The notes under the pieces: model-generated
Seen by the model: only the letters and a program-made list of their open reading frames with translations
The model's database searches: none
Told to the model about the DNA's origin: nothing
Origin: a virus
Direction: 5' to 3' (one strand)
DNA: 23,303 nucleotides
IMG/VR virus record: IMGVR_UViG_3300041405_000346
Coordinates: 1 to 23,303 of that record
Made by a program: the position numbers and the translations under genes
In this document: one piece after another, positions 2,183 through 20,556 of the stretch
How positions within the stretch are numbered: the first letter of the stretch is position 1
Layout: each line of letters begins with the position of its first letter

Positions 2183-2656
2183 ATGAATGACTGGTTGACG
2201 ATCGCGCTTGCCCTGGGCCTGGCCGCCCGCCTCACGCGCCTGATCACGCTCGACACGATCACCCAGCCCATCCGCGACCGCCTCTCAGGTTTCTTCGCGG
2301 CGCTCGTGGAGTGCCCGTGGTGCTCGGGAGTGTGGACAGCCGTCGCGGTGGGACTGTCCTGGATGTGGTGGGCAGACCAGACCTGGTGGCAGGTCACCGC
2401 TCTCATCGGCACCATCGCCTGGGTCGCGGGCGCAGCTGCCGGGGTCGGCGGACCACGCCAAGTCGAGGTCGCCACGGTCTCGCCCGTGGCGCTGGTCCAC
2501 GTCGACGAACCGCCGCAGGTGGACACCATCGAACACACCGTCGAGCTCAGCACTGATCTCACCGACGCCGAGATCGAGAAGGTCACCGAGCAGGTCTTCA
2601 AGCGGATGAACCGGCGCGGGGCGATCGAGGACGACGGCACGGACGGGTCGTACTGA
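2183..2656 (+). CDS. DUF1360-like membrane protein
   Basis: About 157 residues. The N-terminal half carries the pattern I associate with DUF1360 proteins: a first helix (LTIALALGLAARLTRLI), then DTITQPIRDRL, then CPWCSGVW followed by a second helix. A third hydrophobic stretch (VTALIGTIAWVAGAAAGVGG) precedes a soluble acidic C-terminus containing LTDAEIEKVTEQVFKRM. DUF1360 proteins occur in Bacillus and in phages, and their role is poorly known. GTG codons at 2177 and 2180 are alternative starts. No Shine-Dalgarno sequence is visible and the recurrent motif lies about 15 nt upstream, so a leaderless message is possible. The TGA overlaps the portal ATG by one base, indicating co-translation. 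Confidence 0.75.
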   Translation: MNDWLTIALALGLAARLTRLITLDTITQPIRDRLSGFFAALVECPWCSGVWTAVAVGLSWMWWADQTWWQVTALIGTIAWVAGAAAGVGGPRQVEVATVSPVALVHVDEPPQVDTIEHTVELSTDLTDAEIEKVTEQVFKRMNRRGAIEDDGTDGSY

Positions 2657-4395
2657 TGTCCTGGCGCTCTGAGATCAAGAGCCTCACGGCCGCGATGTTC
2701 CGGGGGCGTCCCTCCGGCGTCATCGACGGCCGCGTCAGCATGGGCTCCTACGCCTTGCAGAGCGCCACCGCCGAATGGCAGGCCGAGGCCGCCGAGCTCT
2801 ACAACCTCGTGCCCGAGCTGCGGTACGGCATCTACTGGATCGCCTCCTCCGCCTCCCGCGCCTCTCTGGTCATCGCCAAGAAACCGCAGGGCAGCGCGAC
2901 CGAACCCGAGGCCGTCCCGCGCGACCACGCCGCGTGGGAACCTCTCGACGAGCTCGCCCCCACCGCCCCCGAGCAGGCGATGCTCATCTACCGCATCGTC
3001 ACGCTCATGAAGCTGCTCGGGCGCTGGAGGCTCGTCGGCTTCGACACCGAGAACGGCCAGCGGCAGTGGGTCGTCTCCTCCGAGTACGACTACCGCGAGT
3101 CCGGCAACGGCGTCGAGGTCCACGATGCGACCACCGGCGTCAGCTATCAGCTGAGGTCCGACCAGGTCTGGTCGATTCCGATGCTCATGCCCCACCCCGT
3201 GCGCTCGGCCGAGCCCGACGCCCCCACCCGGGCCCTCATCCCCACCCTCCACGAACTCATCGACCTGTCCGGACACGTCCAGACGGCCGCGAAATCCCGC
3301 CTGGCCGGAGCGGGCCTGCTCCTGGTCCCCAACCAAATCGGCACCGTCACCCCGGGACAGTCCAGCGGCGTCAACCCCCCCGAGGGCAACTCCCTCATGC
3401 AGTCCCTCATGCGCACCGCGCAGGCGAGCCTGCGCTCGCCCACCGACGTCTCGCGCCACCTGCCGGTCATCATCAACGGCCACCAGGAAGCGCTCAACGC
3501 CGTCCGGCACCTCTCGCTGCAGACACCGTTCGACGAGCGGGTCGACAGCTTGCGGACTTCGGCCGTGCGTCGCATCGCAATCGGCCTCGACCTCCCCGCT
3601 GAAGTCCTCAGTGGACTCGGAGAGCTCAATCACTGGACCGCATGGGCTGTCGAATCCTCAGGTCAACGGGTCAACATCGAGCCCACATTGAACTTCGTCT
3701 GCCGAGAGCTGACGACGAAGTTCCTGCGCCCAGCCCTGGAGGCCATGGGCCTGGCGGACGCCGACCAGTACATGGTCAGTTTCGATGTCGCCGGAGCCCA
3801 GTCCGAGGCCAACAAGGGCGATCTCGCACTCGCCGCCTACGACCTGGGAATCATCTCCGCCGACGCCGCGCGTACGGCCCTGGGCTACGGCTCGGGGGAC
3901 GCGCCGCCCCCCGGTACGCCGGTGCCCGCGCAGACCGAAGGGCGTCCCGAGAGCGAGCGGCCCCTGGTGCCCAGTGCGATGGAGCGCCTCGCCGATCGGC
4001 TCCGTGACCAGACGAACCGAGCCGGTCCCGCGTCAGGCGACGAGTCGCAGGTCGGCCTGTCGTCGCTGGTCTCGGATGCGGGTTGGGCGGCGTGCGCCGA
4101 CATCGGGGCGCGCCGGGCGCTGCGTCGGTGCGGGCAGTACCTCATCGGCTCCTCGCGGTCGCTGCGCGGCCGGTACCGGAGCACGCCTCTTGAGGCGATG
4201 CACACCCAGATCCGAGTCGATCCCGAGACGGTCGAGTCGGCCCTGCGCGACGGGTTCGCCGAGCTGGCCGAGGCTGCGCCTCAGCTGGTCGACCCCGTGT
4301 CCCGTTATGTCCGTTTTAGGATAGAAACAGGTACCAAGCACGATATGTCCGAAATGTGCAGGTATCTTCTAGAAGAGTCGCCAACGAGGAGGTAG
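2656..4395 (+). CDS. Phage portal protein
   Basis: This 579-residue protein would form the dodecameric portal ring at the capsid vertex, through which DNA enters and leaves. Recognition rests on the actinophage-type portal layout: an N-terminal region with YNLVPELRYGIYWIASSASR (about residues 50-70), a central region with AKSRLAGAGLLLVPNQI, and LDLPAEVLSGLGELNHWTAW (about 315-335), typical of the portal stem and wing. Its place directly before the capsid protease fits the usual order, and the length is in the normal range. The last 35 residues include sequence that also forms the recurrent motif (4308-4324) serving the next gene, so the coding and regulatory signals overlap. The terminase, normally upstream, is not in the window. 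Confidence 0.88.
   Translation: MSWRSEIKSLTAAMFRGRPSGVIDGRVSMGSYALQSATAEWQAEAAELYNLVPELRYGIYWIASSASRASLVIAKKPQGSATEPEAVPRDHAAWEPLDELAPTAPEQAMLIYRIVTLMKLLGRWRLVGFDTENGQRQWVVSSEYDYRESGNGVEVHDATTGVSYQLRSDQVWSIPMLMPHPVRSAEPDAPTRALIPTLHELIDLSGHVQTAAKSRLAGAGLLLVPNQIGTVTPGQSSGVNPPEGNSLMQSLMRTAQASLRSPTDVSRHLPVIINGHQEALNAVRHLSLQTPFDERVDSLRTSAVRRIAIGLDLPAEVLSGLGELNHWTAWAVESSGQRVNIEPTLNFVCRELTTKFLRPALEAMGLADADQYMVSFDVAGAQSEANKGDLALAAYDLGIISADAARTALGYGSGDAPPPGTPVPAQTEGRPESERPLVPSAMERLADRLRDQTNRAGPASGDESQVGLSSLVSDAGWAACADIGARRALRRCGQYLIGSSRSLRGRYRSTPLEAMHTQIRVDPETVESALRDGFAELAEAAPQLVDPVSRYVRFRIETGTKHDMSEMCRYLLEESPTRR
4308..4351 (+). promoter_or_regulatory. Recurrent motif upstream of the protease gene, inside portal 3' end
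   Basis: TGTCCGTTTTAGGATAG (4308-4324) matches the recurrent motif and resembles the 2121 copy through its GGATAG extension. A partial second copy, TGTCCGAAATG, begins at 4346. Both lie in the last 90 nt of the portal gene; the protease start is at 4402 behind AGGAGG (4387-4392). Confidence 0.5.
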
Positions 4396-4401
4396 AGCGC
4401 G

Positions 4402-6144
4402 ATGCCGGTGACCGTGAATACGGACCTGCCGCTGCACGACGACCGGTCCCGCGAATGGGACGGCGACGCGGCCCGCAAGGCCATGGCGAGCCGCTGCTCC
4501 TCCGATGACGGCGTCAACGCCGACTGCATGGGGCCCGGGTTCATCTGGAGGGACGGCGACGCCGAGGCCTCCACGATCGGCGCCTACAAGCTCCCCGTCG
4601 CCGACGTCTTCGACGGCGAGGTCCACCTGGTTCTCTCCGGCGTCCAGGCCGCCGCCAACGCCGTCTCCCCCGAACGCGAACCCGGCAGCCCCCGCGCGCT
4701 GGAGGCCTCGGAGTCCGAGCTCGGCGAGATGCGCTCGGCCCTGGACCGGATCTTCAAGCGCTTCGCCGCCGAGTTCGACGACGACACGATCCGCTCCCCC
4801 TGGGCCGAGGCGCCCTCCGAGACCGCTACCGCCGCACCCCCCGTCACCGCGAGCGGCTGCTGCGGCGGATGCGGGTGCAAGAGCGGCCAGACCAATGACG
4901 ACGACGCCGCCGATGAGCGGTCCGAACCCAAGCAGGAGGAGGCTGCCATGAGCAGCACCAGCGCCCAGCCCATCCAGGTGCGGTCCCGCAGCAACGTCCT
5001 GCGGGCCTCGGCCACCGGCGGCGAATGGCGGCCGCCGAGCGACCACTTCGCCAACCCCCGCCTGAACGAACCCACCAAGCTGACCGTCACCGCCGACGGC
5101 AGGGTCTACGGGCATCTCGCCACCTGGGACCAGCCGCACATCGGTTACGACGGCAAGCTGGTCTACCCGCCGCGCAACCGGGACGGCTCCTACGGGTACT
5201 TCCGGCAGTCGCAGGTCGTCACCGCCGACGGCTCGGTCGTCCCGGTCGGCCTGATCACCATGAACACCGGCCACGCCGACGAGTCCCTCAGCGCCGACGC
5301 GGCGGCCGCGCACTACGACAACACCGGCACGATGATGGCCGCCTGCAACGTCGGGGAAGACTCGATCGGCATCTGGCTGGCCGGGTCGATGCTCCCCGAC
5401 GTCTCGCCGGAGCTGCGCAACCGGTTCTCCCTGGCCCGTGTCTCGGGCGACTGGCGCCAGCCCAAGCCCGGCGCGCCCCTGGAGCTCATCGCTGCGCTCA
5501 GCGTGCCCAACCCCGGTTTCCCGGTGCGGCAGAACGCCGATCTCCTGGCCGCCGATCGGCTGACGCTGGCCGCCTCGGGTCTGGTCAAGGCCGAAGCGGG
5601 CGAGATCCGCACGTTCATCTGCGCGGGAGCCAGCGTCGTCGACGAGGCCCAGCAGGCCGCGCTCGCCGACGCGGTCCGGTCGGTCATCGGCCCCGACTTC
5701 ATCACGCAGATCAAGGACGCCGTTGTCGAGGCCATCAAGGCCGAGGCGCCCGCAGCTCCTGAGCCCCAGGCCCCGGCCGCCACCGAACCGGCGGCAGCCG
5801 AAGCGGAGGCCAAAGCCGAGGCCCCGGTCGAAGAGGCGCCCCCCGCTGCCCCTGCCGCAGAGGCTCCGGCCGTGGAGGCAGCGCAGACCCCGACCGGCCC
5901 TGCCGATGGGGAAGCAGCGGCTCCGGCCGAGACCGCTCCAGCGGCCACCGACACGGGCGGGGCCGCTGCGGTTCCTGCCACGGACCCTGTTGACGCAGCG
6001 GCCCCGCCCGTTCCCGCCCAGGCCGCTCCGGTCGAGGCCGCCCAGGTCGCCGCCAGCGCGCTGGCGGCCCAGCTGCTCAAGCACCGGTCGGTGTCGGCGC
6101 GCAAGCGGCTGATGGCTGCCGCCGGTCGAGGAAAAAAAGCCTGA
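4402..6144 (+). CDS. Capsid maturation protease with scaffold-like tail
   Basis: This 580-residue protein is the prohead protease. An N-terminal module (about 1-100) has FIWRDGD and SYKLP-like YKLPVADVFDGEV, a pattern seen in front of actinophage proteases. A linker with the Cys cluster CCGGCGC (around 153) leads to the protease domain, which shows GHLATWD (237), GLITMNTGHA (283-292, with a likely catalytic His), HYDNTG (304), GEDSIGIWLAG (318) and SGDWR (348). From about 448 to 560 the chain is Ala/Pro/Glu-rich, like a scaffolding delta domain, and it ends in a basic helix. The ATG is preceded by AGGAGG. Two further signals sit inside the gene: a strong in-frame start at 4948 and an A7 slippery site just before the stop. 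It should process the capsid protein encoded at 6847. Confidence 0.9.
   Translation: MPVTVNTDLPLHDDRSREWDGDAARKAMASRCSSDDGVNADCMGPGFIWRDGDAEASTIGAYKLPVADVFDGEVHLVLSGVQAAANAVSPEREPGSPRALEASESELGEMRSALDRIFKRFAAEFDDDTIRSPWAEAPSETATAAPPVTASGCCGGCGCKSGQTNDDDAADERSEPKQEEAAMSSTSAQPIQVRSRSNVLRASATGGEWRPPSDHFANPRLNEPTKLTVTADGRVYGHLATWDQPHIGYDGKLVYPPRNRDGSYGYFRQSQVVTADGSVVPVGLITMNTGHADESLSADAAAAHYDNTGTMMAACNVGEDSIGIWLAGSMLPDVSPELRNRFSLARVSGDWRQPKPGAPLELIAALSVPNPGFPVRQNADLLAADRLTLAASGLVKAEAGEIRTFICAGASVVDEAQQAALADAVRSVIGPDFITQIKDAVVEAIKAEAPAAPEPQAPAATEPAAAEAEAKAEAPVEEAPPAAPAAEAPAVEAAQTPTGPADGEAAAPAETAPAATDTGGAAAVPATDPVDAAAPPVPAQAAPVEAAQVAASALAAQLLKHRSVSARKRLMAAAGRGKKA
4934..4950 (+). promoter_or_regulatory. 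Internal ribosome binding site and in-frame ATG in the protease gene
   Basis: AGGAGGAGG followed five bases later by ATG (4948-4950) is an excellent Shine-Dalgarno and start, in frame with the protease (Met183). Initiation here would yield a 398-residue protein beginning MSSTSAQPIQ. It would keep the whole GHLATW protease domain and tail but lack the YKLPVADV module and the Cys cluster. An unselected AGGAGG just before an in-frame ATG at a domain boundary is unlikely, so two products are likely. Confidence 0.6.
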
Positions 6145-6169
6145 CCGCCGCCCCGCCGCCTGCGGCGGT
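6132..6169 (+). other. Candidate programmed -1 ribosomal frameshift site
   Basis: Seven consecutive A (6132-6138) fall as A AAA AAA in the protease frame, two codons before its stop at 6142. After a 5-nt spacer, ACCGCCGC (6144-6151) can pair perfectly with GCGGCGGT (6162-6169); an alternative stem is CCGCCGC/GCGGCGG (6153-6168). A -1 slip continues SLTAAPPPAAVGWVDLP into the following ORF, which is open without interruption. The resulting fusion would be 690 residues. Slippery heptamer, short spacer and stem are the standard -1 frameshift elements. Confidence 0.65.
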
Positions 6170-6473
6170 GGGGTGGGTCGACCTGCCTGGGAACCGGAAC
6201 TGGGTCGACGAGTCCGGCGGTACGCAGCGCGACCTCAAGGCGGTGGCTCTGTGGCTGATGGCGAAGGGATTCAGCCAGTCCCACGCGATCGCCGTGGCGA
6301 CGAACGTGATCCGCCGCTGGTGCCGTGGAGGCGCCAGCGGCAATCCGGGCGACAACCTCAACTGGCCCGGGGAGCAGACCGCGACGGTCAGGACCCGGAT
6401 GCGCGGCTGCAAGGCGGTCCTCGAATACAACGCCAAGCGAGCGCTGGCCAAGGCGCGCTCGGCCGCGCGGTAG
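6168..6473 (+). CDS. Small conserved phage domain, probable frameshift extension of the protease
   Basis: The ORF from GTG 6168 encodes 101 residues: VDLPGNRNWVDESGG, then LKAVALWLMAKGFSQSHAIAVATNVIRRWCRGG, then a basic tail with RMRGCKAVLEYNAKRALAKAR. The pattern G.S.SHAIA.A...V..WC, followed by a Lys/Ala-rich helix, is familiar to me from short domains near or fused to capsid proteases in actinophages; its role is unknown. The proposed GTG lies inside a GC hairpin and has no Shine-Dalgarno, while the reading frame is open upstream to the A7 run at the end of the protease gene. I therefore favour expression as a -1 frameshift extension of the protease rather than as a free protein. A separate protein from GTG 6168 remains possible. 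Confidence 0.7.
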   Translation: MGWVDLPGNRNWVDESGGTQRDLKAVALWLMAKGFSQSHAIAVATNVIRRWCRGGASGNPGDNLNWPGEQTATVRTRMRGCKAVLEYNAKRALAKARSAAR

Positions 6474-6497: not shown

Positions 6498-6683
6498 GTG
6501 GGGTGTGGCTGTGAGAAGAACGCCGCCGGTGGTTTTACGTCGAGCCGGACGCGGTGGCAGGTCGTGACCCCTTCGGGTGCGCGGGTGACCTACGGCAGGC
6601 GCGAGGACGCGGTGCGGCATGCCGAGATCCATAACGGGACGGTCGAGGAGATCCGCCCGGGCATGACTCTGTCCAAAAGCTAA
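6498..6683 (+). CDS. Small MGCGC protein
   Basis: This 61-residue protein begins VGCGCEKN (read MGCGC) and continues with a compact beta-rich unit: RWQVVTPSGARVTYGRREDAVRHAEIHNGTVEEI. Short proteins opening with MGCGC and followed by a pattern like V..P.G....Y.....A are common between protease and capsid genes in actinophages, and their function is not known to me. The GTG at 6498 follows AAGGGA at about 8 nt. The gene starts 24 nt after the preceding ORF and closes this transcription unit; a small inverted repeat and the recurrent motif follow. Confidence 0.75.
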   Translation: MGCGCEKNAAGGFTSSRTRWQVVTPSGARVTYGRREDAVRHAEIHNGTVEEIRPGMTLSKS

Positions 6684-6846: not shown

Positions 6847-8598
6847 ATGACGCTCGACGAACTCATCGAGGCGCTGAACGGTCTCGATGCCGAGGAGCGG
6901 CTCGCGCGAATCGAGCAGCTCGTCGGCGAACTCTCTGAAGACGACCTGGCCGCCATCCGCGACGCCGCCATCGAGGCCGCGCAGTCCTACATCGACGAGG
7001 TCCCCAGCGACGAGGCGAGCATCGCCCGCGCCGAAGCCCTCGGCATCGTCCTCGACGCGATCGACCGGCGCTCCAGCACCGAAGAGACCGACGCCGAAAC
7101 CGCCGCCGCCCAAGAGGCCGACCTCGAAGCGCAGGCCGCGCGCTCGGCGTCCGCCGAAGAAGTGGCCGAGCCCGCACGGGAGGGCGAACTCGTCGCCGCC
7201 GACGGCGCTCCGCAGACCCAGAATGCGAGTACTCAGATGCCGATCCCGCTCGCCCAGGCCGCCTCCGTCGCTCCGACGCAGGTTGCCACCAGCGGCCGCA
7301 CCGATCACGTGAAGCACACCGTCGTGGCCGCAGGCGACCTCCCCGACTATCGCGGCGGTACGCCGCTGCCGGACATGAAGGCGATCGCCGCCGCCGTCCA
7401 GGCCGGGATGACCGTCGTTTCCCGCTCCCAGGCCCCCGGCGTCCGCCAGGGTCTGTGCTCGATCCAGCGCGAGGCGCCCGACCACCTCAACTACACCGGA
7501 GCCAGCGACTGGCTCAAGGTCGACGAGGCCACCAAGGAGCGCAATCTCCCCGGAAAGTCCCTCGTGGCCGCAGGTGGGTGGTGCGCCCCTTCTGAGGTGC
7601 TTTACGACACTTGTCCGATTCCGGTGTCCCGGGATGGCCTGATCGACCTGCCGACCATCACCGCGACCCGAGGTGGCGTCAAGTATTCGCGCCGTCCTGA
7701 CTTCGCGCCGTTCTGGAGCCTCGTCGGCTTCGAGCAGACCGAGACCGACGCGATCGCCGGGGTCGAGAAGCGTTGCTTCGAGATCCCCTGCCCTGACGAC
7801 CTGTCCGAATGCCGTATGGACATTGAGGGCATTTGTCTGGTTCAGCCCCTTCTGACCGAAAGGGGCTGGCCTGAGAAGGTTGAGGAGTTTGTCGAGTATG
7901 CGATGCTCGCTCACGCCCACCGGATCAACGCGCTCCGCATCCAGCGCATGGTCGACATGGCCACCTGGTCGATCACCGTCCCCGGCCCGGTCCGCGTGCC
8001 CGCCGACGGCGGTCTCCCGGCCACCGAGATCACCCGCGACAACCACGGGCCCGGCGCGTTCGAATCGCTCCTGAGCGTCCTCGAACTCCAGGTCGAGTTC
8101 TTCCGCTACTCCATGCGCCTGAGCCGCACCGCCCTCCTTGAGGGCATGGCGCCGTACTGGCTGCGCGGCCTGCTGCGCGCCGACATCAGCAAGAAGCTCG
8201 GCATCGACGACAGGTGGGGCGCAGGCTCCGACGAAGCCCTCGACCGCTGGTTCGCCGACCGAGGCGTCCGCATCCAGTTCGTGTACGACTGGCAGGACTC
8301 GATGGCCTCGCAGGACCCGGCCGCGTTCGGCGGTACCCCGCCGACCAAGTGGCCCGAGCAGGTCTCGCTCCTCCTCTGGGAGCCGGGCACCTACTTCGGC
8401 CTGCAGCAGGACGTCATCAACCTGACCGGCGTCTACGACCGCACCGACCTGCAGCGCAACGTCTACACGCGACTGTTCACCGAGGAAGGTTTCGCGGTCT
8501 GCGCCCGCTGCGGCCGCAGCATGCTCATCACCATCCCGCTGTGCCCCAACGGTTTGTCCGGGTCGCACGAACTCGTGCTCTGCACCGAAGGCGCGTAG
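6847..8598 (+). CDS. Major capsid protein (HK97-fold) with N-terminal scaffold-like region
   Basis: This 583-residue protein would build the capsid shell. Residues 1-115 are acidic and helical (LDELIEALNGLDAEERLARIEQL), like a scaffolding domain removed by the upstream protease. A linker to about 150 follows, then an HK97-type body with SREGL-like SRDGLIDLPTITATRGG, FEIPCPDDLSECRMDIEGICL, a long helix (WPEKVEEFVEYAMLAHAHRINALRIQRM) and a C-terminal P-domain-like part. The last 32 residues hold four Cys (552, 555, 566, 579), starting CARCGRS, which could bind metal or form disulphides. The ATG follows GGAG at 7 nt, and the leader to the regulatory motif is about 97 nt. Position after the protease and overall layout support the call. 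Confidence 0.88.
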   Translation: MTLDELIEALNGLDAEERLARIEQLVGELSEDDLAAIRDAAIEAAQSYIDEVPSDEASIARAEALGIVLDAIDRRSSTEETDAETAAAQEADLEAQAARSASAEEVAEPAREGELVAADGAPQTQNASTQMPIPLAQAASVAPTQVATSGRTDHVKHTVVAAGDLPDYRGGTPLPDMKAIAAAVQAGMTVVSRSQAPGVRQGLCSIQREAPDHLNYTGASDWLKVDEATKERNLPGKSLVAAGGWCAPSEVLYDTCPIPVSRDGLIDLPTITATRGGVKYSRRPDFAPFWSLVGFEQTETDAIAGVEKRCFEIPCPDDLSECRMDIEGICLVQPLLTERGWPEKVEEFVEYAMLAHAHRINALRIQRMVDMATWSITVPGPVRVPADGGLPATEITRDNHGPGAFESLLSVLELQVEFFRYSMRLSRTALLEGMAPYWLRGLLRADISKKLGIDDRWGAGSDEALDRWFADRGVRIQFVYDWQDSMASQDPAAFGGTPPTKWPEQVSLLLWEPGTYFGLQQDVINLTGVYDRTDLQRNVYTRLFTEEGFAVCARCGRSMLITIPLCPNGLSGSHELVLCTEGA

Positions 8599-19458: not shown

Positions 19459-20028
19459 GTGACCGATGCTTCTAAATATCCGACAATGTACACTTCGCGC
19501 CCACTTGCGGAGGCACAGGCCGAGCAGTCCACGCCGCAGCCCATCGCCGGGAACACAAACACGCCTGCGGCTGCTGAGCCGGAGCCCACCGGCGCGACGC
19601 CGCGTCGCGCCGCGCAGCTGCCGGTGGTCGACATCAACTTCGAAGACATCCCCGAGCAGCAGTACGAGGACTTCGCCTTCCCGCTCAAGACTGCCCCCGG
19701 CATCGTCTGGGTGCTCGGGATCGACGATGACGCGGTGTTGTTCGACATCATGGAAGTCACCCGCGAGGACAGCCCCAACGAGATCATCAAGTTCTGCCTC
19801 GGCGCGACCTTCCGCTACGCGGTCGACGAGTCCGGCGAAGAGATCGAGAACGGCCTCAAGAAGCTCATGGACTACACCGACCCCCACCGACGCGGCGAGA
19901 AGGAATCTCGCAAGTACCTCATGGAGGTCGTCATGAGCGCAGTCGACAAGTGGTGCGAGGAGCTCACCGACACCTCCATGCGTCCGCAGACCCGGGCGCA
20001 GCGCCGGGCGCGTCCCCGGCGGCGGTAG
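19459..20028 (+). CDS. Tail assembly chaperone, first ORF (gpG-like)
   Basis: This 189-residue protein has a disordered, Pro/Ala-rich N-terminus (1-55). A compact domain follows: EDIPEQQYEDFAFPLKTAPG, VWVLGIDDDAVLFDIMEVTRED, then a helical part with FRYAVDESGEEIENGLKKLM and SRKYLMEVVMSAVDKWCEEL. It ends in a very basic tail (RAQRRARPRRR). Size, place directly before the tape measure gene and pairing with a second ORF match tail assembly chaperones, which coat the tape measure protein during tail assembly. GTG 19459 is used because the motif upstream leaves little room; ATG 19486 is possible. The TAG stop is followed immediately by the second ORF in the same frame, so a normal -1 frameshift would not join them. 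Confidence 0.7.
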   Translation: MTDASKYPTMYTSRPLAEAQAEQSTPQPIAGNTNTPAAAEPEPTGATPRRAAQLPVVDINFEDIPEQQYEDFAFPLKTAPGIVWVLGIDDDAVLFDIMEVTREDSPNEIIKFCLGATFRYAVDESGEEIENGLKKLMDYTDPHRRGEKESRKYLMEVVMSAVDKWCEELTDTSMRPQTRAQRRARPRRR

Positions 20029-20556
20029 TTGCGCTCGTTCGCCAACGAAGTCCGGTTCCCCCTGTCCGCACCGGAGGTGGTGCTGGTGCGGATCGAGGGC
20101 GAAGACTTCTGGCTCAAGGTGCCCCCCACGCTGGAGCTGCTGGACATCGCGGCGAACTACGCGTGGCAGCAGCTCATCCCGGGCGCGCTTGAGGAGCCGG
20201 GGCGCCAGCTCCTGTTGGACTGGCTCGACGACTCCGACCACCCCGCGTCGTGGAAGCGGCTGCACGTGGCGATGCAGCCGCTGGGGCTGTACCTCTACGG
20301 CGTCCCCTACTTCGTCGCGGCGCGAACAGCCGCGAACCTGCTGCACCACTACAGCCTGTTCCGCATGTGGGCGCAGTTGAACCTGCACTTCGACCCTCAG
20401 CAGGCACAGGCGGCTGACTGGATCGCGGCGGCTCTGGCGTGGCTGCTGAGCACGAAGACCGACTCCAAGGAACGCAATGCGCTGTGGGCTGAGCTGACGA
20501 CTCCTGGGCGTCTGCCGACGGATGCGCCGGGAGTGCTCCCTGAATGGATGGCGTAG
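20029..20556 (+). CDS. Tail assembly chaperone, second ORF (gpT-like)
   Basis: The ORF is 175 codons from the TTG directly after the TAG of the first ORF. It shows VRIEGEDFWLKVPPTLELL, a helical core with QLLLDWLDDSDHPASWKRL and GLYLYGVPYFVAARTAANLL, a second helical part (ADWIAAALAWLLSTK), and ends GVLPEWMA. The position between gpG-like and tape measure genes argues for the gpT-like chaperone part. Three routes to expression are possible: read-through of the single amber codon, giving one fusion of about 365 residues; restart at the TTG; or independent start at GTG 20086, which has GGAGG 8 nt upstream and would begin VRIEGEDFWL. The last has the best ribosome site, so the true start is uncertain. 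Confidence 0.65.
   Translation: MRSFANEVRFPLSAPEVVLVRIEGEDFWLKVPPTLELLDIAANYAWQQLIPGALEEPGRQLLLDWLDDSDHPASWKRLHVAMQPLGLYLYGVPYFVAARTAANLLHHYSLFRMWAQLNLHFDPQQAQAADWIAAALAWLLSTKTDSKERNALWAELTTPGRLPTDAPGVLPEWMA

Follow-up and report, generated by a model that had tools for sequence, protein, structure and literature searches.

A phage head maturation protease gene with a candidate programmed -1 frameshift into a basic C-terminal domain

Introduction

Does a head maturation protease gene that ends on a run of seven A (A7), with an open -1 frame beyond its stop codon, encode one protein or two? This question is raised by a locus in the virus record IMGVR_UViG_3300041405_000346, of which the whole stretch of 23,303 nt was analysed (hereafter "the window"). 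An earlier note had proposed a candidate programmed -1 frameshift that fuses the protease to a downstream domain. Conservation of the slip site, homologues with both parts in one ORF and a -1 join in a second clade support this proposal. The gene very probably makes two products by -1 ribosomal frameshifting on A_AAA_AAA, with a hairpin probably helping.

Frameshifting by -1 is known in phage structural genes, and frameshifted coat genes have been reviewed (PMC5009743). Frameshift-extended coat and tail proteins occur in T7/T3 (gene 10), Lactobacillus phage A2 and Listeria phages A118/A500, and by a +1 shift in PSA (PMC5009743). As in the window, slippage towards the end of a virion gene yields a minority product with C-terminal extension. 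In these systems, however, the extended protein is a subunit of coat or tail and often bears an Ig-like domain, whereas here it would be the maturation protease, extended by a basic helical domain. No report of frameshifting in a capsid protease was found in the literature searched, which covered few subscription papers.

Results

The protease gene and its 3' end

Coordinates of all features are listed in Table 1. The protease ORF matches the head maturation protease family phrog_18402 (4.8e-48) as well as phrog_29860 (7.6e-47) and related head families, and it is situated between portal and major capsid genes. The name protease is taken from family annotation, proteolytic activity on head proteins being putative. 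Search by sequence for a relative of solved structure gave no convincing one.

Table 1. Features of the protease locus in the window
Feature	Position	Strand	Remarks
Portal protein gene (context)	2656..4395	+	phrog_776, 3.4e-97
Head maturation protease, 0-frame product	4402..6144	+	580 aa, 59.7 kDa, pI 4.6
Slippery heptamer A_AAA_AAA	6132..6138	+	in slip phase; invariant 8/8
-1 frame extension with SHAIAVA-type domain	6138..6473	+	111 residues, pI 10.9
0-frame stop TGA	6142..6144	+	one codon past heptamer; invariant 8/8
GC-rich hairpin, probable stimulator	6150..6174	+	arms 6150-6160 / 6164-6174
GTG, rival start codon	6168..6170	+	no ribosome site
Small downstream ORF (context)	6498..6683	+	phrog_2069, 0.0013; own ribosome site, GGAG upstream
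Major head protein gene (context)	6847..8598	+	phrog_777, 8.6e-133

The ORF ends with GGA AAA AAA GCC TGA. The A7 run thus lies just before the protease stop in the phase A AAA AAA, as the earlier note had it, with GCC as the single sense codon in between. The -1 frame, likewise described as open, reads AGC CTG ACC from position 6138 and continues to TAG at 6471-6473. Full fusion product would have 690 residues and a mass of 71.5 kDa.

The heptamer is a rarity in its surroundings. With 67% GC, 0.05 A7 runs are expected in the window, and this run is the sole stretch of six or more A or T on either strand. Within the protease ORF, A_AAA_AAA is also the only in-phase X_XXY_YYZ heptamer with A or T as Y. 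Together with C_CCU_UUY, it belongs to the most slip-prone heptamer classes measured in E. coli (PMC4066793). An A_AAA_AAA cassette gave 10% frameshifting (PMC3711429); in E. coli, which may differ from the phage host, A_AAA_AAA is less slippery than A_AAA_AAG (PMC5009743).

Conservation of the slippery heptamer

Relatives encoding both protease and extension were found on eight IMG/VR contigs from other metagenome data sets. Because one of them (L015) repeats another (L014) at the junction, codon analyses were performed on seven relatives and the window. Fused products of the relatives are 68-92% identical to that of the window, and 20-46% of four-fold sites differ. AAAAAAAGCCTGACCGCCGC is nevertheless unchanged in all eight relatives; no invariant run around the junction is longer than these 20 nt, and when the whole viral collection was scanned with this motif, only those eight contigs were matched.

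Conservation of the heptamer exceeds what the protein requires. Among ten conserved lysine columns, AAA is used in all eight sequences only at the two columns of the slip site; the other eight columns are all-AAG, mostly AAG or mixed. The preceding codon is GGA (Gly) in most sequences and TCA (Ser) in L006 and L012, the A that completes A7 being kept in both cases.

Downstream RNA structure

The earlier note had assigned a stimulatory role to a perfect 8-bp stem. Its arms, ACCGCCGC (6144-6151) and GCGGCGGT (6162-6169), are indeed present in the window, 5 nt past A7, but the relatives do not retain it: for three of the eight pairs, just two to four of the eight sequences can form them. A more stable, GC-rich hairpin overlaps it and is common to six of the eight. 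In these six, folding energy of the hairpin is lower than that of almost all windows from the same gene, and in five of them it also beats synonymous shuffles. In L006 and L012, no such hairpin lies near the slip site. No compensatory changes were observed in it among the eight sequences, pair counts for either stem being uninformative on covariation. The hairpin is likely to be a stimulator in one branch rather than a conserved requirement.

The -1 frame is conserved from the slip onward

Among the relatives, the extension is 83-97% identical, starting at the first residue past the slip. In the 23 nt between TGA and GTG 6168, most changes fall on third positions of the -1 frame (numbers are small), which suggests that this stretch is translated in that frame. 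As judged from the identity and from the predominance of third-position changes, strong purifying selection acts on the -1 domain.

We wondered if the domain might instead be a separate protein of 110 or 101 residues, made by coupled re-initiation at CTG 6141 or GTG 6168. CTG 6141 overlaps the stop as CTGA, the same layout as the TTGA and GTGA overlaps at a tail gene pair of this group, and GAGG precedes the A run in the window, L010 and L014. This GAGG is, however, absent from five of the eight sequences although A7 stays. Replacement of CTG by ATG, GTG or TTG would leave the protease residue as it is (GCC to GCA, GCG or GCT), yet the C is invariant in all eight, unlike the start codons of the tail gene pair, which vary. 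GTG 6168 does lie within the stem proposed earlier, at its 3' arm, and lacks a ribosome site in seven of the eight sequences, the eighth (L013) having a 3-nt match at poor spacing. A start there would not require a conserved -1 frame upstream of it. Neither start accounts for A7 or for the fused relatives, and in the window clade there is no homologue that keeps the small ORF while lacking the A run or the open upstream frame, an arrangement which the earlier note had named as a refutation. We therefore regard re-initiation as unlikely.

The tail gene pair itself consists, in the window, of neighbouring tail-region genes (19459-20028 and 20029-20556), perhaps a chaperone pair, the second of which is in frame with the first and begins with TTG directly after TAG. 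Four relatives instead have the second ORF in the -1 frame, overlapping the first as TTGA or GTGA, and coupled starts are therefore likely in this pair.

Properties and occurrence of the domain

Pfam, PHROGs and NCBIfam were searched with the domain and no confident family was found. Structure prediction with the eight relatives gave no usable model (pLDDT 50); with 52 sequences, it was of moderate quality (pLDDT 69), with helices predicted at residues 13-16, 22-33, 38-54 and 75-101. The latter model retrieved nothing from PDB at E <= 0.001. Sequence search yielded two weak matches to designed helical repeat proteins, which were taken to represent helix composition. The acidic protease and its basic extension contrast in charge (Table 1).

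Besides the protease, the domain occurs near the N-terminus of an ADP-ribosyltransferase gene that adjoins a protease/MuF gene (L043:3480-7043) and on a separate small protein encoded upstream of terminase (L019:3944-4627). In our reading of the sequence, it is also C-terminal on what reads like a portal protein (L101:2178-3743). Pfam matched none of the domain stretches that were searched. Cultured phages carry only distant copies. Scanning of genome contigs gave a single match, 22 residues on a Verrucomicrobiales contig (L032), which was set aside as chance.

Homologues that encode protease and domain as one ORF

If the extension belongs to the protease, homologues might be expected in which both are encoded by one continuous ORF, a check that had been proposed earlier. 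Such homologues were found in number. A profile scan gave 80 loci; of the 67 that were analysed, 40 encode protease and domain by a single ORF. On a tree of 51 proteases, the domain is in frame and C-terminal at 30 loci, in frame and N-terminal at nine, and in the -1 frame at 12. The nearest sisters of the window clade, L058 and L062, have it in frame. In the protease of the Streptomyces violaceusniger plasmid pSTRVI02 (WP_014043750.1), near which a major capsid gene is found, the homologous protease and domain form one protein in the same order as in the window, the C-terminal domain being 49% identical over 91 residues. Gp55 of Microbacterium phage Hendrix also unites both, with the domain N-terminal of the protease.

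Unlike the window, continuous ORFs such as these contain no slip site, so every copy of the protein carries the domain. Since most in-frame relatives lack a slip site, not all members of the family need a short form. Because relatives either keep the slip site or have one continuous gene, the domain appears to belong genuinely to the enzyme and, in the window, would be made in limited amount.

A second clade with a different heptamer

Four phages of a distant clade likewise connect the same protease with the same domain through a -1 step, here at C_CCU_UUY (C_CCU_UUC in L095 and L107, C_CCU_UUU in L140 and L141). Here the 0-frame stop follows 8-12 codons from the slip. Both clades hence possess an X_XXY_YYZ heptamer in slip phase. 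L139, a close relative placed beside L140 in the tree, has CGC CCG TTT; its heptamer is broken and its frame continuous. In total, an in-phase heptamer is present in 12 of 12 split loci, which are not 12 independent events as they fall into only two clades, and in one of 29 continuous linkers.

This one linker belongs to L114, where C_CCU_UUU (L114:3410-3416) is followed by a -1 stop after three codons. It is possible that L114 yields a short form by slipping, a reversed, dnaX-like use of the same switch. GAGG-type sites are found upstream of the heptamer in L107, L140, L141 and L114. As to codon usage, the protease ORFs of L140 and L141 have 25-26 Phe codons each, and TTT is used for just one of them, at the slip site (position 3312 in L140, 3357 in L141); CCT is likewise rare in these ORFs.

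The second clade also bears on the question of whether RNA polymerase, rather than the ribosome, slips. Since A runs can cause slippage, addition of one A to some transcripts would yield an identical GKKSL junction and the same protein. The A runs cited for transcript slippage nonetheless exceed seven (PMC3711429), while the run here counts exactly seven A in all eight sequences, and C_CCU_UUY of the second clade holds no comparable homopolymer run; transcriptional slippage is accordingly very improbable. It is barely credible that the split stems from an error in sequencing or assembly, or from decay of a frameshifted gene: homopolymers are prone to indel errors and more distant relatives have one continuous ORF, yet the same A7 and TGA recur in eight contigs of other data sets and purifying selection on the -1 domain is strong.

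Discussion

Programmed -1 frameshifting by the ribosome would operate as follows. Most ribosomes would end at TGA 6142 and release the protease of 580 residues. In a minority, two lysyl-tRNAs on AAA AAA would slip back by one base at A_AAA_AAA, probably aided by the GC-rich hairpin downstream, and these ribosomes would read the -1 frame to 6473, producing the 690-residue protease with its basic, mainly helical C-terminal domain. It would be the ribosome rather than RNA polymerase that slips, at a rate presumably in the percent range. A share of protease copies, not all, would then carry the domain, and the extended product may determine how much of the domain the prohead contains. We infer a site of action inside the head, where the domain would probably bind DNA or one of the head components; its role may be one of head targeting or DNA binding.

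Two known systems may be compared. One is the tail assembly chaperone frameshift, lambda G/G-T, as reported by Xu, Hendrix and Duda (2004). It is like the window in its X_XXY_YYZ slip within a late phage operon, in the conservation of this slip among phages and in a ratio of short to long product; it is unlike the window in gene and module, its products being tail assembly chaperones. In dnaX (tau/gamma), as in the window, one slip site provides one enzyme in two length forms. The 0-frame product of the window is the short one, however, and the two genes are not homologous. L114 does have the polarity of dnaX, with a long 0-frame form and a short -1 form.

On balance, we lean towards the view that setting the ratio of short to domain-bearing protease by -1 frameshifting is a recurrent device of head assembly in these phages, with at least two origins, different heptamers and both polarities (L114), which disappears once the frame becomes continuous again (L139).

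For annotation, gene callers would miss the extension or call a false gene at GTG. A domain with no Pfam or confident PHROGs match recurs on protease, portal and ADP-ribosyltransferase proteins. Relatives with a slip site, with a fused gene and with a broken slip site would represent a natural experiment on why a phage limits one domain of its protease. If the proposed frameshift is true, the maturation protease joins the phage head and tail genes that are expressed by frameshifting.
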